62,104 bases of DNA, taken from contig CANJPY010000018.1 in the NCBI GenBank assembly GCA_947476255.1, positions 1 to 62,104 of the forward strand, read 5' to 3'. The notes beneath the pieces were generated by a model. The model was not told where the DNA came from. It saw only the letters and a program-made list of their open reading frames with translations, and did no database searches. This document shows positions 42,206 through 58,832 of the stretch, piece after piece. Numbering within the stretch: the first letter of the stretch is position 1; every line of letters starts with the position of its first letter. The stretch comes from Chthoniobacteraceae bacterium. Lineage in GTDB: Bacteria > Verrucomicrobiota > Verrucomicrobiia > Chthoniobacterales > Chthoniobacteraceae. A program made the translations under genes and the position numbers.

Positions 42206-42970
42206 TCACTTGGCCGGTGCAGTCGCGGGATGCTGCATTTGGTTCAGTTCTTTCTGAAACGCATCAAATTCTTCCTGCTTCTCGACAAAGATATGCGACC
42301 GCATTGCGTAGTGACCGGCGCCACAAAGCTGGGCGCATACGATCTCATACTTGCCAAGTTTTACAGGCCGAAACCACAGGGGGACCTTGGTGCCTGGAAT
42401 CGCATCCTGGGCAACCCTCATATGGGGGATGGATACCGCATGAATCACGTCCTTGGAGGATACCTCCAAAACTACGGGCTGCTGGTTCACCACGTGCAGC
42501 TCATTCTTGGACACAATGTCGTCTTTTCCAGACTCGTCGTCCGGATCCAAACCCAACGGGTTGCTGGGAGAGACAAACTTGGCTGACTGTTTTCCAAAAA
42601 CGCCATCCGGACCCGCGTAGTGAAAGTTCCAAGCATACTGCTCGCCGATTGCACGCACACGCAGAGCCTCGGATTGATCAGGAATGTCCACCACGCGTTT
42701 GCCCCACAAAGGCACCGCAAAACCAAGGAGAAGCGATGCCTCGATAAAGATCACCGCAAACTCAGCATGGGTGGAAGCATGGCTACGCACACCGTGATAG
42801 TCGGCGTTGGGATGCTTTTTCTTATTGAACTTATAAACTGAAACCAAGAAGAAAGTCCCCCATCCCACAAACAGCACCAACATGAACCAGTGACACATCT
42901 CCAGCATGTGCTCCACCGCGCGACCATGTTCCGAGGCATTGGGGACAATCCCCATCAGCTTGTTCAGCAT
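42206..42970 (-). CDS. coxB: Cytochrome c oxidase subunit II
   Basis: 254 residues. Two N-terminal membrane helices (MCHWFMLVLFVGWGTFFLVSVYKF and AVIFIEASLLLGFAVPLW) precede a cupredoxin domain. The CuA site is complete: DVIHAVSIPHMRV, then CAQLCGAGHYAM (C-x3-C-x3-H-x2-M). There is no fused cytochrome c, so the separate cytochromes of the operon must serve as donors. A short Asp-rich insert (LDPDDESGKDD) sits in the cupredoxin domain. The gene comes after subunits I, III and IV, whereas subunit II usually precedes subunit I. Confidence 0.95.
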   Translation of the reverse strand: MLNKLMGIVPNASEHGRAVEHMLEMCHWFMLVLFVGWGTFFLVSVYKFNKKKHPNADYHGVRSHASTHAEFAVIFIEASLLLGFAVPLWGKRVVDIPDQSEALRVRAIGEQYAWNFHYAGPDGVFGKQSAKFVSPSNPLGLDPDDESGKDDIVSKNELHVVNQQPVVLEVSSKDVIHAVSIPHMRVAQDAIPGTKVPLWFRPVKLGKYEIVCAQLCGAGHYAMRSHIFVEKQEEFDAFQKELNQMQHPATAPAK

Positions 42971-43426: not shown

Positions 43427-43813
43427 TCAATGTGTTGAGTAGGACGTTCCCGATACTGGATCTGAGTGGGTCAACAGAGTGAGCAGGAACAATCCCACTA
43501 CAAAGATCGCGGTCATGATTAAAAAGCGCCAGATCGTCATCTTCTCACCCTTCAAATGCATAAAAATGGCAGCCACCATCGCCGCTTTAATGGTCGCCAC
43601 AATCATCCCGACAATGATGTTCATTTGCCGAGACCCGAAATCCACATAGGACAGTCCTACGGTGATTCCGGTCAGCACCAGAAGCCCCACTCCCACCTTG
43701 ATGTAGCCACCGATGTGAGCAGCAATGTGTGCGGCTTCTGCCGCCTGATCATGTCCGTGGGCGTCATGGGCCGCCCCTGCCGGCGTAGGACTGTGTGAAT
43801 GTGATGCGCTCAT
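43427..43813 (-). CDS. Cytochrome c oxidase subunit IV family protein
   Basis: 128 residues: a His-rich N-terminus (HSHSPTPAGAAHDAHGHD) and three helices with GLSYVDFG, GMIVATIKAAMVAAIFMHLKGE, typical of prokaryotic subunit IV (CtaF/CyoD-like). It stabilises subunits I and III. It lies 2 nt after coxC. Confidence 0.9.
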   Translation of the reverse strand: MSASHSHSPTPAGAAHDAHGHDQAAEAAHIAAHIGGYIKVGVGLLVLTGITVGLSYVDFGSRQMNIIVGMIVATIKAAMVAAIFMHLKGEKMTIWRFLIMTAIFVVGLFLLTLLTHSDPVSGTSYSTH

Positions 43814-43815
43814 GC

Positions 43816-44808
43816 TTAGAGTAGATAGAAAATCGGGAATACGAAAATCCAGACGAGATCAACGAAGTGCCAGAAAAGACCCGCTATTTCCACGCGATTC
43901 GCCAAGTGTTCAGGATTGGTCTTGTACAACTGTGTTCCGCCACGGAATGGGAGCCACAAGTAAAGGAACACAATGATACCCCCGAGCACATGCAAACCGT
44001 GCAGACCTGTGATCAGGAAGTAGGTGGCGAAATAGGTGCTGTGCCTTGGAGCAAACACGCTCGCAGACTCAACATCGCTGGCTTTGATCACAGCCAACTT
44101 GGTACTCGTCGGCACTGGCCAAAAGTGGGGACGGTCGTTTTCCTTGTCGGAGGGATTGGCGTTCACGGCATCCAACTGGATCACATAATCATCCTCTGCT
44201 GGCGTCACTGCATCGTGACGACCCGTCTCATGAGCAAAGTGCTCTGCATTGTGCTCGGCCTGGTGGGCATAGTGGGACCCCTTCGGCGCATCCAGAAGGT
44301 GACCTGATATCTCCCACCTCGGACTTTGTCCGGTGTCCTTAAGGTGCTTGTTGCCCAAAAACTCCTCGTACTTCGAAGCTTCCTCTTTCTTGATAAATAC
44401 CCCGAAGTGGTTGAACTTTGCCGGCCACTCGTAGGAGAGTTTGACCGTCAAAAAGATCAGCCCGCAGACAATAGTGACGAGCATGTACAGCTTGTACTTG
44501 CCAAGTTGGCGCATCTTTAGTGCAGCCCAAGCCATCACCACGGTGATTGAGGACACAATCAAAATTGCAGTGTTCATCGTTCCGACTGGAACGTTGAGCA
44601 AACCCGCCGGCCAGTAACCTGGTTCTGCACCGAGACGCAGGAAGATATACGCTGAGAACAACCCGCCGAATAGCATCACTTCGGAGGCGAGAAACAGCCA
44701 TATTCCAAGCTTCGCACTGTAAAGGCCTGTGTCCGGGCGGGCGGAAACGGTGTGGGGAACCTCTGCATCCGTGAAAAACGGAAGGTATTTTGTAATCGGA
44801 TTAGACAT
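43816..44808 (-). CDS. coxC: Cytochrome c oxidase subunit III with a large His-rich insert
   Basis: 330 residues. The helices of subunit III are clear: LGIWLFLASEVMLFGGLFSAYI, TAILIVSSITVVMAWAAL, YKLYMLVTIVCGLIFLTVK, then TYFATYFLITGLHGLHVLGG and the end VEIAGLFWHFVDLVWIFVFP. Between helix 3 and helix 4 is a hydrophilic insert of about 120 residues (about 135-255), rich in His (for example HYAHQAEHNAEHFAHETGRH) and acidic residues. Normal five-helix subunit III is about 190-210 residues long. The insert may contact a partner such as a cytochrome c or ACIII. Confidence 0.93.
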   Translation of the reverse strand: MSNPITKYLPFFTDAEVPHTVSARPDTGLYSAKLGIWLFLASEVMLFGGLFSAYIFLRLGAEPGYWPAGLLNVPVGTMNTAILIVSSITVVMAWAALKMRQLGKYKLYMLVTIVCGLIFLTVKLSYEWPAKFNHFGVFIKKEEASKYEEFLGNKHLKDTGQSPRWEISGHLLDAPKGSHYAHQAEHNAEHFAHETGRHDAVTPAEDDYVIQLDAVNANPSDKENDRPHFWPVPTSTKLAVIKASDVESASVFAPRHSTYFATYFLITGLHGLHVLGGIIVFLYLWLPFRGGTQLYKTNPEHLANRVEIAGLFWHFVDLVWIFVFPIFYLL

Positions 44809-44866: not shown

Positions 44867-46687
44867 CTAGTCACGGGAAGTTTGAGGATGGAAATCAGCG
44901 TGATAACCGGGAACGCTATACTCGTAGGGGCCGCGAAAAACTTCAATGGGCTTGTCGAAGTTTCCGTGTGGCGGAGGCGTTGGCGTGTCCCAATCCAGCG
45001 TCGTTGCATCCCAAGGATTGCGCCCCACCTTCTTGCCAAACTTCCAACTCGTGAAGAAATTAAAAATGAACACCAACTGGAAGAGCGCAAGAATTCCAGC
45101 AGACACAGTCATCACCTTGTTCCAGTGTAGCACGGGGCCTGCGAGTTGCTCATAGGTCACTCCCCCATCGTACCACCGACGATGCACCCCACCCATTCCT
45201 TGGATAAACATCGGGAAAAAGAGCCCGTTAATGGCTAGCAAAGAACCCCAGAAATGGACCTTCCCCAGAAATTCGCTCATCTTGCGTCCGGTCACCTTAG
45301 GATACCAGAAGTAGACACCAGCAAAAAGGCCGAAAATAGTACCGGGTGCCACAACATAGTGGAAGTGACCGATCACGTAGTAGGTGTCGTGTAAGAACAA
45401 GTCCACGGCATTGAACGCGAGCGGAATCCCAGTCAAGCCTCCAAGCCCGAACATCGGAAGAAACGATGTGGCAAACAACATGGGTGTGTTGAAACGGATA
45501 GAGCCACCCCATAGCGAAAGCAACAGCGCCGTAAGCAGAATCACAGAGGGCACCGAAATCATGATGGTGGTGACTTGGAAGAAAGCGGCAACCTTTGCGC
45601 CCATTCCCGTCATGTACATATGGTGCGCCCAAACGATGAAGGAGAGAAACCCGAGCGTAAACACGGAATAAACCATCGCTTTGTAACCATAGAGAGGCTT
45701 CCTCGTGTTGTTTGCGACAATCTCAGAAACAATTCCTATTGCAGGAAGAATGAGAACGTACACTTCAGGATGGGCCAAAAACCAAAAGAGGTGCTGCCAA
45801 AGAATAGGGCTGCCGCCGCCCGACCAAGTTTGAGCTACAGACTGACCAACGACCAAGCCGGTGGGCATGAAAAAGCTTGTGCCTAAAACACGATCCGTCA
45901 ACTGCATGAAACCAGCGGCTTCGAGGGGAGGAAAGGCAAGCACCAGCAGGAAGGCTGTGACAAACTGTGCCCAAACAAAAAAGGGCAACCGCATCCAGGT
46001 TAGACCAGGGGCACGGAGCTGGATAATCGTCGTGATAAAGTTGATGGATCCCAGTAGAGAACCGGTGATATTGAACACCATCGCAATGAGCCACATTGTC
46101 TGACCGTTCAGCCAGATGTTTCCATTCTCAAAATCAGCGATACCCGCCAACGGAGGATAGGCCGTCCAACCGGACTTGGCAGCGCTTCCCTTCAGAAAGA
46201 AACTCCCCATCATCAGCACGCAACTAGTGAAGAAGCACCAGAAGCTAGCCATGTTCAGCTTGGGAAACGCCATGTCAGGCGCCCCGATCTGTAGGGGCAC
46301 CACATAGTTGCCGAAACCAGCCACGGCCACGGGAACAATCCCGAAGAAAACCATGATTGTTCCATGCATGGCTCCAAAGACGTTGTAGCCTGCGGCAGTC
46401 AACGCTCCCGCGTCCGTCATGACGGTCTCACCAAAAACAGAGCGCAGAAAACCTCCGACAACGGGCACAGCAATCCCGGGATTAGCCAACTGCCAGCGCA
46501 TCACCAGCATCAACAGAAAGCCGAAAAACAGAAACGAAAGGCCGGTCACGCCGTACTGCAAACCGATGACTTTGTGATCGGTAGAGAACACCCACTTTTG
46601 GAGAAACCCTAATTCGTGATGATGGTGATCGGCATGAGGATCCGTACCTCCATGGTGCCCGACATCTGCGGTTGCGATGCTCGACAT
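44867..46687 (-). CDS. coxA: Cytochrome c oxidase subunit I (A-type)
   Basis: 606 residues, about 12 helices. All redox-site residues are present: MHGTIMVFF (low-spin heme His), AHPEVYVLILP (CuB His, Glu of the D channel and cross-linked Tyr), VWAHHMYMTGM (two CuB His), and HDTYYVIGHFHYV (heme ligands). The HPEVY motif and FGNYVVPLQIGAPDMAFPKLN assign it to the A1 type of heme-copper oxidases. The N-terminus is His-rich (HADHHHHELG). It reduces O2 to water and pumps protons. It is the only complete oxidase subunit I in the window. Confidence 0.97.
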   Translation of the reverse strand: MSSIATADVGHHGGTDPHADHHHHELGFLQKWVFSTDHKVIGLQYGVTGLSFLFFGFLLMLVMRWQLANPGIAVPVVGGFLRSVFGETVMTDAGALTAAGYNVFGAMHGTIMVFFGIVPVAVAGFGNYVVPLQIGAPDMAFPKLNMASFWCFFTSCVLMMGSFFLKGSAAKSGWTAYPPLAGIADFENGNIWLNGQTMWLIAMVFNITGSLLGSINFITTIIQLRAPGLTWMRLPFFVWAQFVTAFLLVLAFPPLEAAGFMQLTDRVLGTSFFMPTGLVVGQSVAQTWSGGGSPILWQHLFWFLAHPEVYVLILPAIGIVSEIVANNTRKPLYGYKAMVYSVFTLGFLSFIVWAHHMYMTGMGAKVAAFFQVTTIMISVPSVILLTALLLSLWGGSIRFNTPMLFATSFLPMFGLGGLTGIPLAFNAVDLFLHDTYYVIGHFHYVVAPGTIFGLFAGVYFWYPKVTGRKMSEFLGKVHFWGSLLAINGLFFPMFIQGMGGVHRRWYDGGVTYEQLAGPVLHWNKVMTVSAGILALFQLVFIFNFFTSWKFGKKVGRNPWDATTLDWDTPTPPPHGNFDKPIEVFRGPYEYSVPGYHADFHPQTSRD

Positions 46688-46786: not shown

Positions 46787-47242
46787 TTACTTCGCCGCCT
46801 CAGCGCCGGGCCACGCCTTCAGATCGGCCTCGGTCCAAGATGTTTTCCGTTCGAGAAATTTGGCCCGCGTTGCTTTCACGACATCGGGAGGAACCGCGGC
46901 AGAAGTGTTTCCAAAACTGCCACGGACATAGGTGATTGCTGCAGCAATCTTTTCGTCAGTCAGCAGCGCTTCCTGAGGGGGCATCACATTATTGTAAGTC
47001 ATCCCTTTCACCGTGATCGGCCCAATGACCCCCTTGAGGATCATGGCAGCAAACCGCTCGGGAGAACCTGAAACGTAGTCCGTTTGGGTCAAAGGAGGAA
47101 ACACTGGAGGCAACCCCATGCCCGTGGGTTGATGACAGGCGACACAAAGCTGCATGTAAACACTCTTGCCCAGCTCCATCTGGTCCTGCGCATGGGACGT
47201 CTGCAATAGAACCACCGAAAGCAATGCCATTAATCGTTTCAT
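46787..47242 (-). CDS. Secreted monoheme cytochrome c
   Basis: 151 residues from MKRLMALLSVVLL; the signal peptide ends near TSHAQ. The heme site is CVACHQPTGMG; the likely Met ligand lies in NVMPPQ. It is a homologue of the C-terminal domain of the diheme cytochrome encoded just upstream, sharing QPTG, FPPL, ITYVRGSFGN and the end motif WTEADLKAWP. It probably shuttles electrons to oxidase subunit II. Confidence 0.9.
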   Translation of the reverse strand: MKRLMALLSVVLLQTSHAQDQMELGKSVYMQLCVACHQPTGMGLPPVFPPLTQTDYVSGSPERFAAMILKGVIGPITVKGMTYNNVMPPQEALLTDEKIAAAITYVRGSFGNTSAAVPPDVVKATRAKFLERKTSWTEADLKAWPGAEAAK

Positions 47243-47258
47243 AATAACTGTTTCTACT

Positions 47259-48395
47259 TTATTCTGGGAAAGCTTTAAGTTCAGCCTCTGTCCACCCCGT
47301 GGCACGCGAGCCGTATTTCTTGCGCGCCTCGGCCACTTGCTCAGGCGTAATGGGCCCCGCCCCACCCCCGAAAGCCGAGCGGACATACGATGCAACCTGT
47401 GAAATTTTGTTGTCCGTGAGGACCGCACCCTGCGGCGGCATTAAATTGTTATAAAGCTTACCATCCACGGTGATCGGGCCCATGACGCCACTTAGGATAA
47501 TGGCTACCAACCTTTCTGGATTATCCTTCACGTACTCAGAGTTGACAAGCGGAGGAAACACGGGAAAAAGCCCCAGCCCCGTAGGCTGATGGCAAGCCAC
47601 ACAAATCGCCATGTACTGCGCCTTACCTGCATCAAGGTCCACAGTGGCGGAAGCAGCTTTCGCTGGGGCGCCAGCCGCAGACGCGCCTGAAGCGGATGGC
47701 GCTGCGTCTACAGCGCCCTCGATAACCGCATCCGCTGGAATTGCAAGAATCTCTGCTTCTGTCCAAGGAGCAGAACGATCTGCAAGCTGCTTTTTAAGAG
47801 CGGCCACCTTTGCCTCTGTAATCTCAGGCGCCGTATTTCCCCAAGTCGCTCTCACGTAGGAAGCGACCGCCGCAATCTTCCGGTCCGACAGGGCCTTTTC
47901 CCAAGCAGGCATGGCGCCGTTGTAGGCAGCCCCCCCAACACTGATAGGGCCGCCAAGGCCCTTGAGTAGAATACTGACGAGGCGCTTCTCGGAACCGACG
48001 ACATAATCCGTCCCAACCAACGGGGGAAACTGACCGGCAATTCCAAGCCCGCTTGCCTGGTGACAAGGCTGGCAGTTCGAATAAATGGCTTTCCCCTGTT
48101 CCACTAAGGACAACTCGACGCTCACCTGAGCCGCAGCCCCCGCACCCGCCTTTTTGGAAGAAAGCAGCGCCGGAGTGGATTCGCTCTCATTAAAGACAGC
48201 TCCGTCAAAGCCGCCGTGATAGATGCCAAAATAAACACCTGCAAAACAGATGATCGCAGCGAAAACGAGCAGTAGCCAAGGAGGCAATACCTGATTGCCC
48301 TCAATGGGATCCGAAAGTTCCCGCTTCGCCGCTGCGGTCACTTTGAGCGAATCGTGAGAATCACTGGATTGATTATGATGGGAATGATTAGACAT
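47259..48395 (-). CDS. Membrane-anchored diheme cytochrome c
   Basis: 378 residues. A cytoplasmic His/Ser-rich start, one membrane helix (LLVFAAIICFAGVYFGIY), then two homologous cytochrome c domains with CQPCHQASGLG and CVACHQPTGLG joined by an Ala-rich linker. Each domain has a MPAW/MPPQ Met region and a closing WTEAEI/WTEAEL motif. It likely wires ACIII to the oxidase. It begins 33 nt after the CcoO-like gene and is followed by the monoheme paralogue. Confidence 0.92.
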   Translation of the reverse strand: MSNHSHHNQSSDSHDSLKVTAAAKRELSDPIEGNQVLPPWLLLVFAAIICFAGVYFGIYHGGFDGAVFNESESTPALLSSKKAGAGAAAQVSVELSLVEQGKAIYSNCQPCHQASGLGIAGQFPPLVGTDYVVGSEKRLVSILLKGLGGPISVGGAAYNGAMPAWEKALSDRKIAAVASYVRATWGNTAPEITEAKVAALKKQLADRSAPWTEAEILAIPADAVIEGAVDAAPSASGASAAGAPAKAASATVDLDAGKAQYMAICVACHQPTGLGLFPVFPPLVNSEYVKDNPERLVAIILSGVMGPITVDGKLYNNLMPPQGAVLTDNKISQVASYVRSAFGGGAGPITPEQVAEARKKYGSRATGWTEAELKAFPE

Positions 48396-48428: not shown

Positions 48429-49118
48429 TTACTTCTTTGAAGGAGCGACTGCAGCAACCGCTCCCGCTTCCTTCAAGGGAGAAGAGCGATTCAGCGAAGA
48501 CAAGTACGCCACCAAGGCCTTCGCGTCCGCGGTGGGTATAATTTCAAAACCACGCTCAGGTGCCAGGTCCACCGGAAGCTTCAGTGCATCGAGCGAAGCA
48601 TGCCCGGACACTTTCCGTTTCTCAAACAAGTGCGCGTATGAAGGCATATTTGAACCCTTCACCACCGCGGTCGGGTGGTAGAGGTGCAAAAACTGCCAGG
48701 CGCTGTCTCTTTTGGAGGGACGCACCTTGTCCAATTCAGGCTCGTTCCTCCATTTGTCAGAACCCACATTGGCCAGATCCGGCCCCAACCGCGTCGACCC
48801 AAGAACCGGTGGCAACTCAAAAATGTAATCCCGCGCCACAGTCCGACGAACGCCCCAACCACGCTCGATGTCGGCAGATTCACTGCCACGCACTACTTGA
48901 GAATGGCAGGCTTGGCAGCCTTCGGAAATGTAGACCGAACGTCCATTAGCCGCATTTCCCCCCGGCGCGGTGGGATAAACATCGGATATCACTCCATCTT
49001 CCTCCTTAAAGGACGGAATTAACGTTCCGATTTGATAATGGGGAGCTAACACTGCCACGCCGAAAGACAGCGCGAAACAGGCGAATAAACCGGTGAAAAA
49101 AGATCCAGAGCGACTCAT
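48429..49118 (-). CDS. CcoO-like membrane cytochrome c
   Basis: 229 residues with one N-terminal helix (FFTGLFACFALSFGVAVLAP). YISEGCQACHSQVVRGSESADIERGWG, then GSTRLGPDLANVG and GSNMPSYAHLF match the mono-heme subunit CcoO/FixO of cbb3 oxidases, with the heme Cys and Met in place. It follows the CcoN-like gene as in cbb3 operons, but CcoP and CcoQ are absent. With a ligand-less CcoN partner it cannot be part of a normal cbb3 oxidase. Confidence 0.9.
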   Translation of the reverse strand: MSRSGSFFTGLFACFALSFGVAVLAPHYQIGTLIPSFKEEDGVISDVYPTAPGGNAANGRSVYISEGCQACHSQVVRGSESADIERGWGVRRTVARDYIFELPPVLGSTRLGPDLANVGSDKWRNEPELDKVRPSKRDSAWQFLHLYHPTAVVKGSNMPSYAHLFEKRKVSGHASLDALKLPVDLAPERGFEIIPTADAKALVAYLSSLNRSSPLKEAGAVAAVAPSKK

Positions 49119-49138
49119 AGACAGTTTGTGTGGAAGGC

Positions 49139-50593
49139 TCAGTGCTCGTGATGAGAATTAAGAAGCGTGGGCTCCCCGGCAGGCTGGCCGATCCGAACAG
49201 CCATCAATAAGAAATGCATTGCAAACAGGAAATACCCACCCAGCAAAAGCACGAACGACATAGTATGCCCCCAGTAATAGGAATTCCCCAACTCAAGGAC
49301 TTGAGAAAAATTCGAATCTGCATCGTTCAAGGCTGAACCTGAAGCGAGGCCGCTCAAGATAAGCATCGCCGCGCCCATGCACCCACCGTAAGCGGATCCG
49401 AGGAAATGCAGCGAAATCAGACTGGACGACAACCACTCGCATCCGGAGAGACGAGGCATGATGTAATAAATCGCGCCAAAAAGAACCATGGACGCGGCTC
49501 CGCGCAGAAGCAGTGCACGCAAACCATTATCAAAGAGCGTATAATGCACTGAGTAGTCAACGGCTCTCAGGGATGAAATCGCTGAAAGCACTGTGGCAAC
49601 GCCTAGAACAGAAAGGCCAAAGAGCACAAATCGCATTGAAGGCGACGCGGTTGTGACAGTCGCGCCTTTCGCTGTTGCAAACAGATTGTACACCGTTCCA
49701 AGCACGGGAACCAAAAGAAGAATACAACCGGAAGCCGCAATCGAGCTCAACCAGAGAGGGACCGGCCCCCCCGATAAACGGGACGCCGAGATCACTCCAG
49801 CAGTCACGAAATAAAGCCAGAAAAGAGACCTTCCCAAAGGGCCGCTGAACACGGGTTGCCCCGTGACCTTGGGAACCAGAAAGTACGCAATTCCGAGAAT
49901 GACTGGTACAATCCACAGCCATAACGCGCCGCTTGATACCCACGTCGCTGCAAGTTGCTGCACCACCCCTGTCACACTATGCGAAGCCACTAGGAGATTA
50001 CCTGTGAGCAAGCTCCATCCGAGCCAAGCCACGCCACCTGAAACGAACATAACCGAGAGAGAGGGGGTTGAATCACTGTAATAGGTGATGGCAAGCCATA
50101 CCGACACGAGGCACAGACCCGCGAACATCACTATAAATGCGGCTAAAGGAAACTCGAGTCCGTTGAAAGGGCGTTGATTCCCCAAAAGAATCGAGAGCAC
50201 TCCGATTAGGACGCCTCCGTTCCAGAGAAGAGCGCCAAAACTTACCAAGGACGTGCCTGGAGCAGCCCGACCAGAGAGGCGGGCAATGATCCAAACCGCG
50301 ACTCCCAGGCACGCCGTTGAACACCACCCGTAAACAAAAGCAGCATCCGCAGCCGGGGCCAAACGCCCAAAGCTGAGAAAAGACCAATTTAAGAAGCTTG
50401 GAAAATGAAGCTTAACAGCCACGGCGGCAGCGAAAAGGGTCGAGAGGAGCAACCAGGCAACACCGCTCAGGAAAAGGCTCACCACCGCGGGACGAACCGC
50501 AGCATCGATTGCCGAACGGTTGGAAACGAGGGTTAAGTCAGTCACGGTAGATGTCTGTGGAGCAGGAGCGTGATGGCTAGCAACTTCAGTCAT
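49139..50593 (-). CDS. CcoN-like heme-copper oxidase subunit I homologue lacking all metal ligands
   Basis: 484 residues, about 12 to 13 membrane helices, clearly related to cbb3 subunit I: FGRL-P (75-80), IAYFLVPKVTGQPVFS (235-250) and FGAIYYIMPRLSG (372-384) match CcoN anchors. Against those anchors every ligand is gone. The low-spin heme His of RPLHTN is Ala (APAADA), the CuB His of YGHN is Ser (near 221), the HH pair falls in ISASRLSGG (268-276), and GHVHSG is NGLRAL (356-361). The His-Tyr cross-link site is lost as well. It therefore cannot bind hemes or CuB in the known way. Position: after the Ala-Pro protein, before the CcoO-like gene, within an ACIII-aa3 operon. The role is probably structural or anchoring for cytochromes (inference). 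Confidence 0.88.
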   Translation of the reverse strand: MTEVASHHAPAPQTSTVTDLTLVSNRSAIDAAVRPAVVSLFLSGVAWLLLSTLFAAAVAVKLHFPSFLNWSFLSFGRLAPAADAAFVYGWCSTACLGVAVWIIARLSGRAAPGTSLVSFGALLWNGGVLIGVLSILLGNQRPFNGLEFPLAAFIVMFAGLCLVSVWLAITYYSDSTPSLSVMFVSGGVAWLGWSLLTGNLLVASHSVTGVVQQLAATWVSSGALWLWIVPVILGIAYFLVPKVTGQPVFSGPLGRSLFWLYFVTAGVISASRLSGGPVPLWLSSIAASGCILLLVPVLGTVYNLFATAKGATVTTASPSMRFVLFGLSVLGVATVLSAISSLRAVDYSVHYTLFDNGLRALLLRGAASMVLFGAIYYIMPRLSGCEWLSSSLISLHFLGSAYGGCMGAAMLILSGLASGSALNDADSNFSQVLELGNSYYWGHTMSFVLLLGGYFLFAMHFLLMAVRIGQPAGEPTLLNSHHEH

Positions 50594-50631
50594 GGTTCAG
50601 GAAGGCTACGCGGTTAAAAGCTTGCTTTTTA

Positions 50632-51159
50632 TTAATTTCCACCAACCGGAGCGGGTGCCGGAGCGGGTGCCGGAGCGGGTGCCGGAGCGGGTGCCGGAGC
50701 GGGTGCCGGAGCGGGTGCCGGAGCGGGTGCCGGAGCGGGTGCCGGAGCGGGTGCCCCTAACTTTGGGAACCGGACGGTGCTTGCTCCCGCAGGTGCAGAG
50801 GGCAACGCCGGGGCGTCCCCAGCTGGGGCTTCGAGCACAGGATCAACCTTTACCGACGAGGCTGACGGCTTCTTGGAACTCAGCTCCTTGATGACAACCT
50901 GTTGGGAAACTCCAATCGGTGTCTTTGCCGTGCCTGCATTCTTGTCCGCCCACTCAAGAGTACTGAGCTTTGCAGTCTCTTCCACATTAATTTTCTTTCG
51001 AACCTCCAACCGCCGGTCCCCTCTCTTAGCTTCCACATCCATTTCAGGCGTGGAGGTTCGTGTGAGATAGAAAGCGGCTACAAGAACTGCTCCCAGACTG
51101 AGAGCGGCCCAGAGGAAGTTACCCGGCGAAAAGCCCGAAGATTCGCGAGACTGGCTCAT
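50632..51159 (-). CDS. Membrane-anchored protein with Ala-Pro rod in the ACIII operon
   Basis: 175 residues. A short N-terminus, one membrane helix (FLWAALSLGAVLVAAFYL), a charged region with LEWADKNAGTAKTPIGVSQQ (about residues 67-87), then a Pro/Ala-rich part ending in about 40 alternating Ala-Pro residues. Such (AP)n stretches are stiff rods. I recall similar one-helix proteins beside act genes in related bacteria, but no established function. It begins 3 nt after actF and precedes the CcoN-like gene. Perhaps a spacer or tether in a supercomplex. Confidence 0.8.
   Translation of the reverse strand: MSQSRESSGFSPGNFLWAALSLGAVLVAAFYLTRTSTPEMDVEAKRGDRRLEVRKKINVEETAKLSTLEWADKNAGTAKTPIGVSQQVVIKELSSKKPSASSVKVDPVLEAPAGDAPALPSAPAGASTVRFPKLGAPAPAPAPAPAPAPAPAPAPAPAPAPAPAPAPAPAPVGGN
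50648..50755 (-). repeat. Nine exact copies of a 12-bp repeat encoding Ala-Pro
   Basis: GGAGCGGGTGCC (plus strand) is repeated nine times head to tail without a mismatch, encoding 36 residues of alternating Ala and Pro on the minus strand. The unit keeps the frame, so gain or loss of copies lengthens or shortens the tail only. Confidence 0.97.
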
Positions 51160-51162
51160 TTC

Positions 51163-52362
51163 TTAGTTATGAAGGTTCACGGAACCCGCAAGGCGAGGAT
51201 CACGTTTTGGGAAAAGACACGACGCGGAGAGGCGGCGGAAGTACAACCCTGCGGCTGCACCACCCACTGCAGCAATGGAGGCTATGTCAAAAACACTCGG
51301 AGAAATTCCAGTCTGATGTAACGATGGAAGCACAATCACGTAAAGGTCAAGAATCTGCATCCCGATCATCCAAGCCGCCACACCGCACAACACCTTGGGT
51401 TTTTTCTTAGTGGACTGGAACAGCAGGAACGGGAAAGGAATAAAGAAACGGCCAACCACAAGGAAAGTACTCAGGTAGTGCCAGCTTTCAGTGTTGCGAA
51501 TCTTGAAATAGATCGTCTCTTCCGGAATGTTCGCGTACCAGATCAGCATGTACTGGCTGTATCCGATATAAGCCCAGAACACAGTGAAAGCTAACATGAA
51601 CTTACCCATCACGTGATAGTGCTCCACGTTCACAGCCTTCAAGTAGCCCGCGTTCCGCAACCCAGTGACAATCAGAACCAGAAGCGCCATTGAACTCCCA
51701 GCCGTTCCTGCAAAGATGTAGACGCCCCACATCGTCGAAAACCAATTATAATCGAGGCCCATTAACCAGTCGACGGCCGCGAAGGTCAAACAAACACCGA
51801 GAACCGGAAGCCCAATAATCGCCGCATTCCTCATCACGTAGGTGTGCTCGGGCGCGCCATCCTTGTCCTGCGCAATCGAACGGCGTGCTAAAACCGTAGC
51901 AACGCCCCCCAACCCCACGAAAAACAAAACGTACCGTATCGTGAAAAAGGTGTGGTTCAGATAGGCGGCCTTTGCATCGAGTAGAGGATCTGCACCAGGG
52001 CTTTTCTCCCACCATTTCCAAAGAATGGGGGCACACAACAAAAGGAGCGGCAGGAAAAATACCGAAAGTGCCGGGATAATACTGGCCACGTTCTCCATCT
52101 GCCGACGCACAAGAATCCCCCACTCAGAATCCGTGGCATGATGAAGTATTGTCCAAAACAAAGCTCCTACGCACAGCGTAAAAATGAGCATGAAACCAAA
52201 CAGCCAGGAAAATGCGAACTGTTCGCGTGAAGCGAACAATCCAAAAGCACTGATCAGCAAACCGAGCGCCGAAACAGCAAAACTGATCGAAGACAATTTC
52301 TTGCCGACAGCAGGGTCAAACTGTTCTGCAGTTAAATTGGAGGATTCCGTAGAGTGGCTCAT
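51163..52362 (-). CDS. actF: Alternative complex III subunit ActF (NrfD-like)
   Basis: 399 residues with about ten helices. It matches the second quinol-binding-type membrane subunit of ACIII: HTFFTIRYVLFFVGL, FAAVDWLMGLDYNWFSTMWGVYIFAG, LMLAFTVFWAYIGYSQYMLIWYANIPEET, VVGRFFIPFPFLL. ACIII oxidises menaquinol or ubiquinol and reduces cytochrome c or the oxidase. Start and stop are fused to the neighbours: 1-nt overlap with actE and 3 nt to the next gene. Confidence 0.92.
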   Translation of the reverse strand: MSHSTESSNLTAEQFDPAVGKKLSSISFAVSALGLLISAFGLFASREQFAFSWLFGFMLIFTLCVGALFWTILHHATDSEWGILVRRQMENVASIIPALSVFFLPLLLLCAPILWKWWEKSPGADPLLDAKAAYLNHTFFTIRYVLFFVGLGGVATVLARRSIAQDKDGAPEHTYVMRNAAIIGLPVLGVCLTFAAVDWLMGLDYNWFSTMWGVYIFAGTAGSSMALLVLIVTGLRNAGYLKAVNVEHYHVMGKFMLAFTVFWAYIGYSQYMLIWYANIPEETIYFKIRNTESWHYLSTFLVVGRFFIPFPFLLFQSTKKKPKVLCGVAAWMIGMQILDLYVIVLPSLHQTGISPSVFDIASIAAVGGAAAGLYFRRLSASCLFPKRDPRLAGSVNLHN

Positions 52363-53036
52363 TACTTCTTTTCCAATTGGGCCTTTAATTCCGGGGAGAG
52401 CAACTCAACCTTCACAGATTGACTTTTCTGGAGTGCTCTCACGTAAGCTACAATCGCCCAACGATCTTCCACAGCGATGCTCGGACCGTAAGCACCCATT
52501 GTGTTCTTCCCGTTTGTGATGGTCGCAAACAATTGACCATCAGGCTGCGCTTTCAAGCGGTCATCAATGAGTGATGCCACCGTCGCGAGGCCGTATGCCT
52601 TCGTGATGCCATTTCCACTCCCAGACCGGTCATGACACACAGCGCAAAAAATATCGTAACGCTCGCGCCCGCGCTGCAGGAGTTTATCGTTCACTTCCAC
52701 AGGAAAACCGTCTCCATAAACATCACCGATAACACCAGTATCCAGATACGTGGGTTCGCTCGTAAATGACGAGTTTCCACTCATGTTGTTCACCCCTGAC
52801 TGGGCGTAACGCCCCGGAAGGTTGTACCCCACAGGAATCGTTCCGGGCACCAAGGGATGATCACCCCGGTTATCACTAAAGAATCCACTCCCATGCTGGG
52901 TTATCACCTTCGGTTGATGCTTCATGTCCGGAGTGATCTGGAGCGGTGTCCCAGCAAACTTCTGCCCACGGAAACCGGCGAGGGAAACCACCGCCAGCAC
53001 CACCAACGTGAAAACAAATAGAAATGTGCGCACCAT
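52362..53036 (-). CDS. actE: Alternative complex III cytochrome c subunit ActE
   Basis: 224 residues; N-terminal signal or anchor helix (FLFVFTLVVLAVVSLAG). Heme motif CAVCHDRSGSGNG, preceded by the ACIII-specific segment RGRERYDIFC and GMPVEVNDKLL-like sequence. The likely Met ligand is in TNGKNTMGAYG. It is the monoheme subunit that carries electrons out of ACIII. Confidence 0.92.
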   Translation of the reverse strand: MVRTFLFVFTLVVLAVVSLAGFRGQKFAGTPLQITPDMKHQPKVITQHGSGFFSDNRGDHPLVPGTIPVGYNLPGRYAQSGVNNMSGNSSFTSEPTYLDTGVIGDVYGDGFPVEVNDKLLQRGRERYDIFCAVCHDRSGSGNGITKAYGLATVASLIDDRLKAQPDGQLFATITNGKNTMGAYGPSIAVEDRWAIVAYVRALQKSQSVKVELLSPELKAQLEKK

Positions 53037-53038
53037 AA

Positions 53039-53584
53039 TCAGTCGTGAATCAAGGTGACGTTTTTCGCCCCAATCTCTTCCAAAAGAGCCTTGGTGCGGG
53101 ATTCAGAAAACTTCGAATCGCGGGCTTCAATAACCATCAGAAAACCATCGTCCGTAAAACGGGTAAACCTATCCCAGTTGAAGACCGGATGATGAAGGCG
53201 CGGCAACTGGTTCATCGCAAACATGGTACCGACTGCCGTAAAGGCGGAGAAAAGGACCGTCAATTCGAAGATGATCGGGAAAAAAGCGGGCAGCGTAGCC
53301 CATGTGTAAGGCTTGCCGTGTACAATCATCGGGTAGATGAAGAAGGAGGGAATGGTCACGAGGGATATCCCAGTAAGAAATCCCAAAAGACCGCCGACAA
53401 AAACGACCGCACTCAAATTGGATTTTCCGAGCCCCATCGCCTTGTCCATTCCATGAATGGGAAAGGGCGTATGAACGTCCCAGTGCGAGAAACCCGCATC
53501 ACGGATTTTCTCGGCAGCGGACATCAGCGAAGCTGCGCTTTCGAACTCGGCTCCCAGGCCATACACTTTTCGTGACTGCGACAT
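53039..53584 (-). CDS. actD: Alternative complex III subunit ActD (DUF3341)
   Basis: 181 residues. An N-terminal soluble domain (YGLGAEFESAASLMSAAEKIRDAGF, then WDVHTPFPIHGMDKAMGL) precedes two membrane helices and the family end FNWDRFTRFTDDGFLMVIEARDSKF. DUF3341 is diagnostic of ACIII. Its role is structural. Confidence 0.94.
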   Translation of the reverse strand: MSQSRKVYGLGAEFESAASLMSAAEKIRDAGFSHWDVHTPFPIHGMDKAMGLGKSNLSAVVFVGGLLGFLTGISLVTIPSFFIYPMIVHGKPYTWATLPAFFPIIFELTVLFSAFTAVGTMFAMNQLPRLHHPVFNWDRFTRFTDDGFLMVIEARDSKFSESRTKALLEEIGAKNVTLIHD

Positions 53585-53590
53585 GGCGGA

Positions 53591-55003
53591 CTAGTGCTTA
53601 AGGTGATGGTTGTGAGGATCTGCCTCAGGTGTAACTCCCTTAACCTCAGAAATGGCGATCATCGGAAGGAATCGCATGAACAGAAGGAACAAGCTGAGGA
53701 AGATTCCGAACGTACCCACAAAGGTGAGTATCTCGGTGGTCGATGGAGAGTAATGCCCCCAGGAACTGGGAAGAAAATCTTGGGCCAGCGAAGTAACGAT
53801 GATCGTGAAGCGCTCGAACCACATCCCAACGTTCACGAACTGACACACGACGAAAACAACGACGTAGTTTGTTCTCATCTTCTTGAACCAAAAAATCTGC
53901 GGTGAAATCACGTTACAGAACATCATGATCCAGTAAGCCCATTGGTACCATCCCTTGCCGTCGATATTCGCACGCGCCGTAAAGAAAGTGAATCCCTCGA
54001 ATTTGTTCGCGCCATACCACGCCACAAATAACTCCATCAGGTAGGCGTAACCCACGATAGATCCAGTCAACAAGATGATCTTCGCCATTTTGTCGACGTG
54101 ATTACGCGTAATCATATCGTTGATCTGAGGAAAAATCCTCGCCGCCGGAAGCATGATCGTCAACACCATCGCAAACCCACCAAAAATGGCGCCGGCCACG
54201 AAGTACGGAGGAAAGATTGTCGTGTGCCATCCGGGCATGATCGAAGTGGCGAAATCGAACGACACGATCGAATGCACCGATAACACCAGAGGCGTTGATA
54301 AGCCGGCCAGAAGGAGATAGGCCATTTCATAGTGGCGCCATTGCCGGTTGCCACCTCTCCAGCCCAAGGCCAGAACTCCGTAGATAATCTGCGCAACCCT
54401 CGACTTTGCTCGGTCACGGAGCGTTGCAAGGTCTGGGATCAAGCCCACAAACCAAAACAGCACAGAAACAGAAAAGTACGTGGATACGGCGAACACGTCC
54501 CAGAGCAATGGCGAACGGAAGTTGGGCCAGATTGCATTGGTATTCGGGATAGGCGCAAGGAACCAGGCGTACCATACGCGTCCCACGTGGATGGCAGGAA
54601 AGATCCCCGCGCAAACCACCGCAAAAAGCGTCATCGCTTCAGCAGCCCGGTTGATGGACGTCCGCCACTTCTGACGGGTGAGGAAAAGCACTGCAGAAAT
54701 CAAAGTCCCCGCGTGGCCGATCCCAATCCAAAACACGAAGTTCGTGATGTCCCAAGCCCAACCATTCGGATGGTTCTCGCCCCACACACCAACCCCGTTC
54801 GAGATCTGGTAGACAATACAAATCAAACCCATCAAGGCGATCGGCGACGTAATGCAGAAGCTGAGCAGCCACCATTTGGGAGTGGACGACTCGACGATGT
54901 TGGAGACGTTTTCAGTCACCCATTGAATGGAGCGACCGTGGTCCACCAACGCGGGCCGCACCAGTTCGTGCGGCGTCTCGAGTTTTACGCTTGAATCAGC
55001 CAT
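53591..55003 (-). CDS. actC: Alternative complex III subunit ActC (NrfD/PsrC family)
   Basis: 470 residues with about ten helices. NrfD/PsrC type: [83 protein letters not shown]. It is the main quinol-binding membrane subunit. Its start overlaps the actB stop by 1 nt. Confidence 0.95.
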
Positions 55004-58000
55004 TACGCGTGTCCTCCGTTCTGAGAGCTTGTGTGCCCATGACTACCACCGTGTCCGTGACCTCCCTTGGAGGCCGATCCGGCGCGCGCAGCGTCGGGCA
55101 TTTTAGGATTGGGATTACGAATGCGTGCAAGATACCAGACACGATTCTCCGTATTTAAGTACTCCAACAGGCGGTATCCGCGCTGGTCTTCCTTGAGTTT
55201 TGCTATGCGACTCTCCGGATTACGAATGTCACCGAACACGATCGCCTCCGTAGGACACACTTGGGCACAAGCCGAAGTAAAACTGTCCGCAGGAACTCGC
55301 GGTTGGACTCCGCTGTCCGAAGACTTCACTTTGGCGGCAATCTTGGCCTCCTGAACCCGTTGCACGCAGAATGTGCACTTCTCCATCACCCCGCGCATAC
55401 GCACGGTGACGTTCGGGTTTTTCTGCATCTGGATGGAATCCGGCGTCCCTTTTTCACTGATCAAATTCCAGCGATAGAGATTGGTAATCGAGCGCTGGTT
55501 GTAATCAAAGAAGTTAAACCGGCGCACTTTAAACGGACAGTTGTTGGCGCAATACCTTGTGCCAATGCAACGATTATACGCCATCACGTTCAGCCCGTCC
55601 TCGGAGTGCACGGTCGCGTTCACAGGACAAACGGTTTCGCAGGGTGCGTTTTCGCACTGCTGACACATCATCGGCTGGCTGACCATTTCTGGCTCGTCTG
55701 CATCGCCACCCTCGCTTGCAAAATAGCGGTCGGTGCGCATCCAGTGCATTTCGCGGCCGTTAATGACCTGCTCCTTGCCAACAATTGGAATGTTATTCTC
55801 AGCCTGACACGCAGTCATACAGGCGGCACAGCCAATGCAGCTGTTGAGATCCACCGCCATGCCCCAGCCGTGTACGTCGTCCAGAGGAGGGTGCGTATAG
55901 AGCGAGAAATTTGCAGGCGCGTGGGCATCAATGCCCATCTTCTTGAAAAAGTCCTTGTTTTCGGCATTCTCGCTCCACTCCTGAGTGGTAGCCTGCCTCG
56001 TGATGTCAGCACCGCGCCCCTCCAGCGCACCATGCTCCTGGGTGATTGCGAGCGCATGACGCCTCCCAGTCTTGAGCGCGGACACCCCCGTGAGAAAACG
56101 TCTGTCCACCGTTGTCTGAAACGGAAACACATTCACCCCAACGCTTTTACCAACACTCCCCACCTCGGTTCGACCGTACCCAACCGCGACAGAAATCGAA
56201 TCGTCAGCGTGACCTGGCAGGACCAGCGCCGCTATTTCCAGCTTCTTCTCCCCCATGGAAAGGCGAATCACATCTCCCGTATCAACGCCTAACTTACGCG
56301 CAGCAGCAGGACTCAAAAGGGCTGCATTGTCCCAAGTCAGTTTTGTCACCGGATCCGGCAATTCCTGCAACCACCCATTGTTGGCGTAACGCCCGTCATC
56401 CACCTTGGAGTCGGTGATAAAGACCAGTTCAAACTGCCCGTCAGCCAAACTCGCGGCCGGTGAATCACCTATTGCTTTCGTGACTGCATCTACTCGAAGT
56501 GCTGCCTCAATGGATTTGGCAGAGGCATTTGAAAAGAAACCGTTCTTCAAGGTCTTTGCCCATACCGCGGAATAATCACCAGAGGCAGACGTCACCTCCG
56601 CGAACGTGTCGCGCACAAGAGTGAGCGGATCGGCACTGATACCGGCAATTTTGGCCAGCAACTCGTTTCCTGTGATGCCATTGTAGAGAGGCAAAATCAC
56701 TGGTTGGCCCACCACATAACTTCCGTCTGAAGCGTAGCAGTCTTCCCACTGCTCCAAATAATGCGCAGCCGGAACATGCCAGTGCGCTTTCGCTGATGTC
56801 TCGTTCTGGTCGATGGAGAGATGAACGACAGTCTTGGCCTTCGCCTGAGCTTCTGCCCAATGTACGTCGGCGGGAGCATTGTAAACTGGATTGCCTCCCA
56901 AAATGAAAAGCCCTTTCACCGCCCCTTTGCGCAACTCCTCGGCGAGTTCAGCGATGCTGGCCGACGCGTCAACGGCAGACTTTTTGAGCTCGATCGTCTT
57001 TCCAAGAGCTCCCAAGGAAACATTCACCGCGAGAGCGAGAGCTTGAACTGCCACCGGTTGCTTGTTCCCTGCCAGAACCAAAGCCTTCCCCTTGTGCGCC
57101 CAGAGATCAGCCGCGCACTCCTCCACCCACTTGTCCTTGATCTTTGTATCAACCACCTTCAACCCGGCCGCCAATGTGGCAAGGAACTGATCGCCTGACA
57201 GTTTCGCCACCTGAGCGGCAAGCGCCTTTAGAAATGCTCCCGACCGACTCGCCGCCAACCGCAAGCGATGATCCGACATGCCGCCCGTCAAAGTGTAGCG
57301 GTTTTCAACAACGTACAGGCGATTCATATTCGCCTTCGGACCATCCACCTTGCGGCGCGCCGCAAATCCCCGCACCGAAGCGATATCTCCCTCAACACCC
57401 AAAATATCCCGGTCAACGGTTAGCACAATGTCCGCTTGATCCAAACGATTCACCACCTCATGCCCGTTGCCAAAAGCAACTGCAGCGGCGGCGACTTCCA
57501 AATCGTTTCCGTTGGGTTCGTACGTTGCCCACATTGCCTTTGGATACTTCGCGAGAACCTTCCGACGCAACCGCTCACGCGTTGGAGAAACAATCCCATC
57601 CACCAAAAATGCAACACCCGAGCCATCAGCCGAAGTTTTGAGAATCTCTTCGAGATCTTTCTCGAAGGAAACAAAATCCGACTTCTTCCCAAGCGACAAG
57701 ACATCCTTCGAGCGCTGAGGATCGTACAAATCAAGAACAGAAGACTGCGCCCAAACATCGGTTGTGCCTTTGTTTACGGGATGCAAAGGATTGCCTTCGA
57801 TCTTTGTCGGACGCCCATCGAAAGTCGTCACAACCAGCGGCATGCCTCCGTTGCGCGTCGGCATCACCGACGCGAAGAAAAGAGCTTTCCCCGGCACAGA
57901 CCATTCCACGGCCTTCGTAAACGGAACGAGGTTTTTAAGCGGTCTCCGGCAAGAGGCCAGACTCAGCCCAGCAAGCGCCACAGACGCTCCCATGAACTGG

Positions 58001-58170
58001 AGAAATCCCCGGCGACTGACATCGTTTCCGTCAATCTCAGAGGCACCTTGGGGAAACTCACGGTGCATCCACTGGCGAAACTCTGGAGTGTCCTGCAGTT
58101 GACCCAGCGAACGCCAGTAGCGTTTGCCCGTTTGAGGCTCTTCGGGATGTTGAAAAATGCGCTTGCTCAT
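55003..58170 (-). CDS. actB: Alternative complex III subunit ActB (molybdopterin-like fused to iron-sulfur domain)
   Basis: 1,055 residues from [12 protein letters not shown], the family-typical start; a longer frame to 58224 would overlap actA. A Tat-like motif [12 protein letters not shown] follows at about residue 52. The large N-terminal part (about 90-720) is a molybdopterin oxidoreductase fold without evident Moco residues. From about 750 a 4Fe-4S domain has [38 protein letters not shown] and CTFCVQ with ACAQVCP, as in ActB (three 4Fe-4S and one 3Fe-4S). The C-terminus is Gly/His-rich. It moves electrons from the quinol site to the heme subunits. Confidence 0.95.
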
Positions 58171-58175
58171 TTGGA

Positions 58176-58832
58176 TTAGCGATGGCAACCGGCGCAGTTC
58201 TTGACCGGGGGATTCACGTGCCACTCGTTCACGAGTGCAGCACCAATTTCACGCTGAGTTTTACCTTCGGACGGCTTCCAGTCCAAGTTCGTGACCTCGG
58301 ATACGGGGCGCAAAAACTCGGAAGGGTTTCTGTGGCAGGTTAGACACCATGCCATGGAGTGAGACTCCGCGTGGTAAACCTCATCCATTTCATTGACCTT
58401 CCCATGGCAACTCACGCAACTCACGCCGCGGTTCACATGAACAGAATGGTGGAAGTACACATGCTCGGGCGTCTTGTGGATCTGCACCCACTCGATGGGC
58501 TTGCCGCTCTTCCAGGAATCATGCACCGGCTGGAGTTTCGGATTTTCACGCTGAATCTGCGAATGGCAGTTCATGCAGACCTGAGTTGTCGGAATGTTCG
58601 AATATGCCGAAGTCTCCACGAAGGAATGACAGTAACGACAATCCATGCCCAACTGGCCTGCGTGAATTTTATGTGAAAAAGGAACAGGCTGTGAGGGCTG
58701 GTAACCCACACGCATGTATTCGGGGTTCAGGTAATACCAAACCCCGGCGCTGACTCCGCCACCCAAGATTAGGAGACAGAATATAATTTTGAAAGGGAGC
58801 CAGTTGCTCCAGCGTGGAAAAATGTTCGCCAT
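58176..58832 (-). CDS. actA: Alternative complex III pentaheme cytochrome c subunit ActA
   Basis: 218 residues. One N-terminal membrane anchor (IIFCLLILGGGVSAGVWYYL) and five CxxCH sites: CRYCH, CMNCH, CVSCH, CLTCH, CAGCH. The block GYQPSQPVPFSHKIHAGQLGMDCRYCHSFVE is diagnostic of ActA. First gene of the operon, with a promoter and a palindrome upstream. Confidence 0.95.
   Translation of the reverse strand: MANIFPRWSNWLPFKIIFCLLILGGGVSAGVWYYLNPEYMRVGYQPSQPVPFSHKIHAGQLGMDCRYCHSFVETSAYSNIPTTQVCMNCHSQIQRENPKLQPVHDSWKSGKPIEWVQIHKTPEHVYFHHSVHVNRGVSCVSCHGKVNEMDEVYHAESHSMAWCLTCHRNPSEFLRPVSEVTNLDWKPSEGKTQREIGAALVNEWHVNPPVKNCAGCHR

Follow-up and report, generated by a model that had tools for sequence, protein, structure and literature searches.

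What could keep a heme-copper oxidase subunit I in a genome after every one of its metal ligands has gone? The question is raised by a CcoN-like gene, here designated N (49139 to 50593, minus strand), in a stretch of 62,104 nt of contig CANJPY010000018.1 (Chthoniobacteraceae bacterium, GCA_947476255.1), the whole of which is referred to as the window. N stands behind the genes of alternative complex III (ACIII) and is followed by genes for CcoO-like and CcoP-like cytochromes c (O and P) and for an aa3-type oxidase. We consider it likely that N is a cofactor-free membrane platform that carries the O and P cytochromes by ACIII, the aa3-type oxidase having taken over O2 reduction. A first-pass annotation had read the gene as a retained dead oxidase scaffold, and the present analysis supports that reading; however, N is not a lone odd gene but a branch of a family that includes intact oxidases and, apparently, at least three separate losses.

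N is a single open frame of 484 amino acids, and both its match to Pfam COX1 (111 bits; cut-off, 34.8) and its predicted structure place it in the heme-copper oxidase superfamily. The top NCBIfam model is ccoN, but at 84 bits the match is far under the 583-bit equivalog cut-off, and N is thus no CcoN equivalog. The nearest solved structure is Pseudomonas stutzeri CcoN (3mk7_A; E value, 1.4e-15; residues 41 to 466). Ligand columns were placed in the alignment with the motifs of L074, a complete CcoNO, as a guide and are numbered here as in P. stutzeri CcoN, in which we take His60 and His347 to bind the low-spin heme, His345 to bind heme b3, and His207, His257, and His258 to bind CuB, with Tyr251 as the active-site tyrosine; in C family oxidases, this tyrosine is located in helix VII. 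In N, the columns of His 60, 207, 257, 258, 345, and 347 are occupied by A, S, S, R, L, and A, respectively, in agreement with the first-pass annotation, whose residues and coordinates are correct, and the Tyr251 column holds Ala, so that neither the six histidines nor the tyrosine of a working oxidase is present. Displaced ligands, which the annotation had named as a possible objection, were ruled out, because the closest histidine in N is 8 columns distant from any ligand column and none lies within 7. Nor are the missing ligands a chance feature of one sequence, since 9 of the 10 aligned members of the genus, the window included, have none of the six histidines, and L012 keeps His207 alone. 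The predicted structure (48 sequences in the alignment) has a predicted local distance difference test score (pLDDT) of 85.6 and a predicted template modeling score (pTM) of 0.89, and its best match is CcoN 3mk7_A (TM score, 0.86), followed by nitric oxide reductase (NOR), ba3, and aa3 structures; as most sequences in its alignment bear heme ligands, the model shows compatibility with the fold and no more.

On sequence evidence, N belongs to one family, whose genes follow those of ACIII in Verrucomicrobiota and in some Planctomycetota. Family matches (E value, <1e-20; partial ones included) were found in 44 of 57 relative genomes, with its own genome counted, and matches of any kind were found in 92 of 288 genomes of the phylum, some of these being merely far matches to other oxidases. 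Among the 99 family members from whole genomes, 25 have six histidines and the tyrosine, one (L129) has five histidines, and 73 lack more, so that 74 are without at least one ligand or the tyrosine; 48 have none of the four active-site histidines, and 21 have none of the six. These counts exclude 14 oxidases of the outgroup and a duplicate entry for the window; L077, which is short, was excluded from the alignment, and family matches in G093, G231, and G279, as well as partial or broken ones in G003 (a second match), G014, G026, and G028, are outside the counts. L034 and L051 are listed with one TGA within the match and yet have open frames of 505 and 489 amino acids. A scan of named genomes (genome_contigs) gave at least 594 stretches, including at least 580 relatives, the best 80 of which, ranked by likeness to L029, were used. 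In this set, 49 are intact, 29 have no active-site histidine, and 2 are partial. By record name, the hosts belong to the verrucomicrobial orders Chthoniobacterales, Terrimicrobiales, Opitutales, Puniceicoccales, Verrucomicrobiales, and Pedosphaerales, and intact members also occur in Planctomycetota (e.g., Pan216 and Zavarzinella formosa) and in single metagenome-assembled genomes labeled Omnitrophota, Bacteroidota, and Pseudomonadota.

The intact form is probably a working oxidase. It is the sole COX1 match in G057 (99% complete) and G197 (98% complete), in which a bd oxidase was searched for and not found. In the genome of the window (G000; 93% complete), COX1 is matched only by N and by the aa3 subunit I, and a search for a bd oxidase found none. 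Two artefactual origins of the ligand-less state were rejected. Seven far matches, read by length (726 to 868 amino acids) and motifs as fused CcoNO, form a separate clade, which argues against paralogue confusion, and assembly artefacts or chimeras were ruled out because ligand-less copies also sit in one-contig genomes such as G073, G152, G274, G302, and G324. L065 and L066, with frames of 550 and 634 amino acids, are six-histidine subunits I with a CcoO-like partner containing two CxxCH motifs and belong neither to CcoNO nor to the ACIII-linked family.

In trees computed with the ligand columns removed, the ligand-less rows are not monophyletic. Four changes were counted on the quick tree (113 rows), three of them forced by starred branches, and four on the careful tree (98 rows), three of them forced by well-supported branches; L129, which has five histidines, Arg at position 207, and CcoS, was scored as lost in the former and as intact in the latter. 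A single lost clade was rejected on the 98-row tree by the approximately unbiased (AU) test (p-AU, 6e-42), a rejection to be read with caution because of long branches, which were flagged on the quick tree. The window falls in a large ligand-less clade; the other separate groups are a clade in family f17, L037 alone, and the pair L227 and L233. The active site has thus been lost at least three separate times in the family.

The loss of the ligands is accompanied by the loss of ccoS, the cofactor-insertion gene. Of 11 genomes whose N is intact, 8 have a Pfam FixS (CcoS) match (7 over the cut-off), always directly upstream of N; none of 15 ligand-less genomes has one. A locus-trained profile, applied to the 1.5 kb that precede N, detected a CcoS-like open reading frame (ORF) in 64 of 65 intact loci, in two of three partial loci (L129 and L227 but not L233), and in 1 of 85 ligand-less loci, indicating that loss of the insertion factor tracks ligand loss; the profile was trained on intact loci, and Pfam FixS was therefore used as the control. 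Loci with <400 nt upstream, L197 and L077 (state unmatched), and outgroup loci are left out of this count. In a second count, over tree rows, CcoS accompanies 51 of 55 intact rows, the misses being L216, the outgroup rows L065 and L066, and L197 (which has a CcoS-like ORF by profile), and 2 of 40 lost rows (L184 and L227). L184, the sole ligand-less locus with a CcoS-like ORF, keeps the IFDEEEPIG end, but the membrane helix is gone. A similar ccoS remnant, an IFDxxEPxG end without the membrane helix, lies upstream of N in L182. The region upstream of N in the window yielded no CcoS-like ORF, and G000, at 93% completeness, has no FixS match. CcoG was matched in 5 of 26 genomes, too few to be informative. 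According to PMC8267372 (citing Koch 2000 and Kulajta 2006), CcoN of Rhodobacter capsulatus lacks heme b, heme b3, and CuB when CcoS is absent, and the CcoNOQP complex is still detected, so that a complex with apo-N can assemble. The near-absence of CcoS from ligand-less loci would thus be independent evidence that the metals are gone.

The ligand states are graded. L227 lacks the tyrosine and both histidines of the helix VII pair, and L233 lacks the tyrosine and one histidine of that pair, all other histidines being kept in both. Among the best 80 relatives, 25 of the 29 members L160 to L188 (named Spartobacteria, Chthoniobacterales, or Verrucomicrobia bacterium; presumably Udaeobacter-like) keep just the two low-spin histidines and no active-site histidine, the exceptions being L181, L184, and L165 and L188, which have a gap at position 60. 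Similarly, L028 and L029 keep both low-spin histidines and have lost all four active-site ones. In the family of the window outside its genus, 12 of 15 rows (L014 to L016, L018, L019, L021 to L024, L026, L027, and L032) have Tyr60 and His347, possibly a candidate Tyr/His heme site. More generally, ligand-less subclades have fixed their own low-spin replacements (e.g., Q/Q, H/I, and Y/H). Some ligand-less members could therefore still bind a single low-spin heme b as an electron relay, with an unusually liganded heme at Tyr60/His347 in the sister genera of the window. The two histidines of the Spartobacteria-type records (25 of the 80 rows) and of L028 and L029, together with the Tyr60/His347 pair, favor this alternative, which we regard as possible but doubtful. 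It does not apply to the genus of the window, which has A or S at position 60 and A, S, or T at position 347 and in which ccoS, reported to be necessary for heme b insertion, was not found either.

The ligand-less genes themselves are maintained. Between the window and six members of its genus, the proportion of nonsynonymous differences (pN) in N is 0.16 to 0.34 and that of synonymous differences (pS) is 0.72 to 0.82; both are given in place of a dN/dS ratio because synonymous sites are saturated in most pairs. Purifying selection on N, the open frames, the conserved neighbors, and the CxxCH-bearing O indicate that the ligand-less gene is not simply decaying. The first-pass annotation had held that absence of the ligand-less form from relatives would point to a decaying gene; the form is instead widespread among them. 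Where at least 6.5 kb of upstream sequence is available, the full set of ActB, ActC, ActD, ActE, and ActF genes accompanies N in 69 of 72 ligand-less loci and in 51 of 58 intact ones. O accompanies N in all 88 ligand-less loci. Every O found contains CxxCH. In the window, CQACH and MPSY were read in O, in agreement with the earlier statement that this CcoO-like partner keeps its CxxCH and its Met. Four CxxCH motifs across O and the cytochromes behind it occur in 12 of 71 ligand-less loci, all in the family of the window, versus two or one in the 60 intact loci; these 12 loci, though from one lineage, would fit a rerouting of electrons through c-hemes in place of b-hemes.

An A-type subunit I, assigned by score (>410 bits) and not by tree, is present in all 28 ligand-less genomes with state read versus 20 of 25 intact ones; the five intact genomes without it come from only four families (f10, f11, f14, and f22, with two in f14), so that the contrast is suggestive only. 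G049 (partial), G093, G279, and G231 are left out of these counts. Among loci with at least 6 kb available, an aa3 subunit I gene lies downstream of N in 41 of 68 ligand-less, 7 of 50 intact, and 0 of 1 partial loci. ActD and ActF were looked for in 23 genomes, 20 of which are without N of this family; 13 of these 20 lack both proteins, and 7 have ActD.

These observations are consistent with the likely role of N as a holder of cytochromes, which could have arisen as follows. N would have started as the catalytic subunit of a C family oxidase encoded within an ACIII operon (ActA to ActF, CcoS, N, O, and a P-like cytochrome). In the lineage of the window, O2 reduction would have passed to an aa3-type oxidase, after which N would have been stripped of both its active site (Tyr, CuB, and heme b3) and its low-spin heme site, and ccoS would have been lost. 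N would then have been kept as the holder of membrane-anchored O and P, probably in contact with ACIII; to judge from gene order, N may assemble with that complex. Electrons would run from the ACIII hemes through the c-hemes of O, P, and the extra cytochrome to CuA of the aa3 oxidase, bypassing N. We propose that N is retained because it holds O and P, so that electrons can reach the aa3 oxidase without entering N. More broadly, we lean slightly toward the view that an ACIII-operon oxidase has become, in three or more lineages, a structural unit, devoid of cofactors, of a larger respiratory assembly (ACIII, a dead N with O and P, and a separate aa3 oxidase) and that living intermediates exist: L227, in which the tyrosine and the helix VII histidine pair are lost and CcoS is kept; the Spartobacteria-type form, in which the active site and CcoS are lost and the low-spin site is kept; and N of the window, in which all are lost.

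Several findings weigh against the platform role. In 27 of the 68 ligand-less loci, no aa3 gene is close downstream, and the earlier suggestion that N holds cytochromes between ACIII and an adjacent aa3 oxidase is therefore not general. Ligand-less N without a nearby aa3 gene is common in f17, where all genomes read have an A-type match elsewhere. G064 has ACIII (ActD, 176 bits; ActF, 42% identical) and no detected N, so N is not indispensable to ACIII. The other N-less genomes with ActD are G047, G001 (partial), G019 (under the cut-off), and G023, G076, and G079 (distant forms); in G047, ActF is at a contig end, and N may thus be cut off. In pairs matched by ActC (bin 0.10 to 0.15), the ligand-less and intact distances are 0.36 versus 0.25 for N and 0.42 versus 0.34 for O, indicating that constraint is relaxed after ligand loss, though not gone. 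In G026, N is split over two frames by a break around codon 270; the N matches in G014 and G028 are partial only. When ligand loss and CcoS loss were compared by independent pairs, only three pairs were available and the result was not significant (same direction, 2.5 of 3 on average; opposite direction, 0.0). Finally, the predominance of heme-ligand relatives in the alignment behind the N model favors the known fold.

The joint acceleration of N and O is not seen in ActF (0.31 versus 0.36) or ActE (0.32 versus 0.36) in the same bin. This, together with the presence of O beside N in all 88 ligand-less loci, would also be expected if N were only an assembly or stability factor, chaperone-like in the folding or heme loading of O, P, or ACIII and outside the mature electron path. 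We consider this unlikely, as the conserved residues are spread along N and include helix ends and loops common to working oxidases, and as cytochromes c normally mature without a subunit-specific partner. Among the retained features are motifs such as VPK and PRL-G-EW, as well as Glu148 (alignment column 207; E in 87 of 104 rows). Such strong retention, like the low-spin replacements fixed by each subclade, might instead reflect a new membrane activity coupled to ACIII, in which the former proton path would serve as an ion channel or proton gate or N would offer a quinone site. However, the polar residues invariant in intact forms at columns 137, 204, 337, 408, and 563 are missing from N of the window and many others, several residues common to intact forms and working CcoNO are absent from N of the window, and by inspection, without a formal test, no new residue pattern common to the separate losses was seen; a new activity is thus quite improbable. 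Slow decay, with N on its way out and kept temporarily by the essential operon that contains it, is very unlikely, for although N evolves faster than in intact relatives, its copy in G026 is broken, ccoS remnants persist in L182 and L184, and G064 has ACIII without a detected N, the loss is ancient (it spans a 54-row clade in the quick tree), frames are open, pN is low against pS, and ligand-less N is also found in the five one-contig genomes named above.

The locus resembles the cbb3 oxidase CcoNOP of P. stutzeri (3mk7) in the fold of N, in the N-O-P-like gene order, and in a CcoO with CxxCH, and the intact relatives of N also share its six histidines, tyrosine, and CcoS. Unlike CcoNOP, N has no metal ligands, no CcoS was found in the window, and the genes lie within an ACIII operon. 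A glutamate in the active center is mandatory for authentic cbb3 oxidases, according to PMC5492636 (citing Muntyan 2015). In our reading of the alignment, this residue corresponds to column 414, which holds E in 7 of 7 CcoNO proteins and mostly L or V in ligand-less members; most intact relatives, unlike authentic cbb3 oxidases, lack the glutamate (Q in 46 of 74), and the family is thus not of the authentic C type by this measure.

The linkage of ACIII to a C-type oxidase is already known. Such genes adjoin ACIII in verrucomicrobial methanotrophs and Opitutaceae (PMC8498564, citing Refojo 2010) and in Methylacidiphilum kamchatkense (PMC6688271). The intact members match the description in the accessible part of PMC8498564, which mentions neither ligand loss nor ligand-less members. 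The ACIII-aa3 supercomplex of Flavobacterium johnsoniae (PMC8361435) is similar to the window in that ACIII is wired to an A-type oxidase, and CcoN-, CcoO-, or CcoP-like subunits are not mentioned in the available part of that account. The CcoS-less cbb3 of R. capsulatus, as described in PMC8267372, resembles the proposed state in being an assembled CcoNOQP with an inactive N lacking heme b, heme b3, and CuB, but it is a laboratory mutant, whereas ligand-less N is an evolved state. Our literature search, mostly of open-access text and partly of incomplete sources, found no description of a ligand-less subunit I, its repeated loss, or a platform role. The earlier remark that no such complex had been described accordingly holds for the ligand loss but not for the linkage (PMC8498564).

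A heme-copper oxidase subunit I is normally defined by its metal ligands. That this subunit has been emptied repeatedly, with the protein kept, points to a structural function within the ACIII assembly, one separable from catalysis, and the graded ligand states would form a natural series from a respiratory enzyme to wiring or a scaffold. Because 74 of the 99 members lack a ligand or the tyrosine, a COX1 or CcoN match in Verrucomicrobiota should not be counted as an oxygen reductase without a ligand check.

In the window, the ACIII genes, g5, N, O, P, the monoheme cytochrome gene, and the aa3 genes are all on the minus strand. ActA to ActF occur together, as expected of an ACIII cluster: ActA (58176 to 58832), a cytochrome c with five CxxCH motifs, was recognized by eye; ActB (55003 to 58224) was named by eye from its sequence and by gene order; ActC (53591 to 55003; NrfD family, PF03916) and ActD (53039 to 53584; PF11821, 203 bits) were assigned by Pfam; ActE (52362 to 53036) is a monoheme cytochrome c named by its cytochrome c domain and order; and ActF (51163 to 52362), which has no Pfam match, was named by position and conserved order. 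The CcoO-like monoheme cytochrome c O (48429 to 49118) matches FixO at 82.9 bits, with 3mk7_B as its top PDB match. P (47259 to 48395) is a CcoP-like cytochrome c with two cytochrome c stretches and two CxxCH motifs; its FixP_N match (24.7 bits) is slightly below the cut-off of 24.9, and CcoP chains are among its weaker PDB matches (E value, ~1e-6). The following monoheme cytochrome c (46787 to 47428) has a listed GTG start that overlaps P, and the real start is probably further in. The aa3-type subunit I (CoxA; 44867 to 46687) matches COX1 at 439 bits, and its top NCBIfam model, CtaD_CoxA, is matched at 567 bits, below the cut-off of 670.75; AHPEVY, AHHMYMTG, and GHFHYV make up a complete ligand set, as had been claimed for the oxidase of this operon. 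Subunit III (43816 to 44808; by eye and gene order), subunit IV (43427 to 43813; COX4_pro), and subunit II (42206 to 42970; COX2) follow, and beyond them are CtaA/CtaB-like (by eye), SCO, and DUF420 proteins.

The small protein g5 (50632 to 51159), encoded between ActF and N, matched no Pfam family and by eye has one hydrophobic helix and a Pro/Ala-repeat tail. The possibility that g5 is CcoS was rejected, as FixS matches adjoin N upstream and CcoS-like ORFs stand beside g5 in intact loci. The C-terminal Ala/Pro repeat of g5 is long and encoded by a tandem DNA repeat, and an opposite-strand ORF over this region (50592 to 50891) has a PERV repeat in its reading. In L092, L100, L110, L141, L142, L144, and L154, the place of g5 between ActF and N is taken by a cytochrome c gene.

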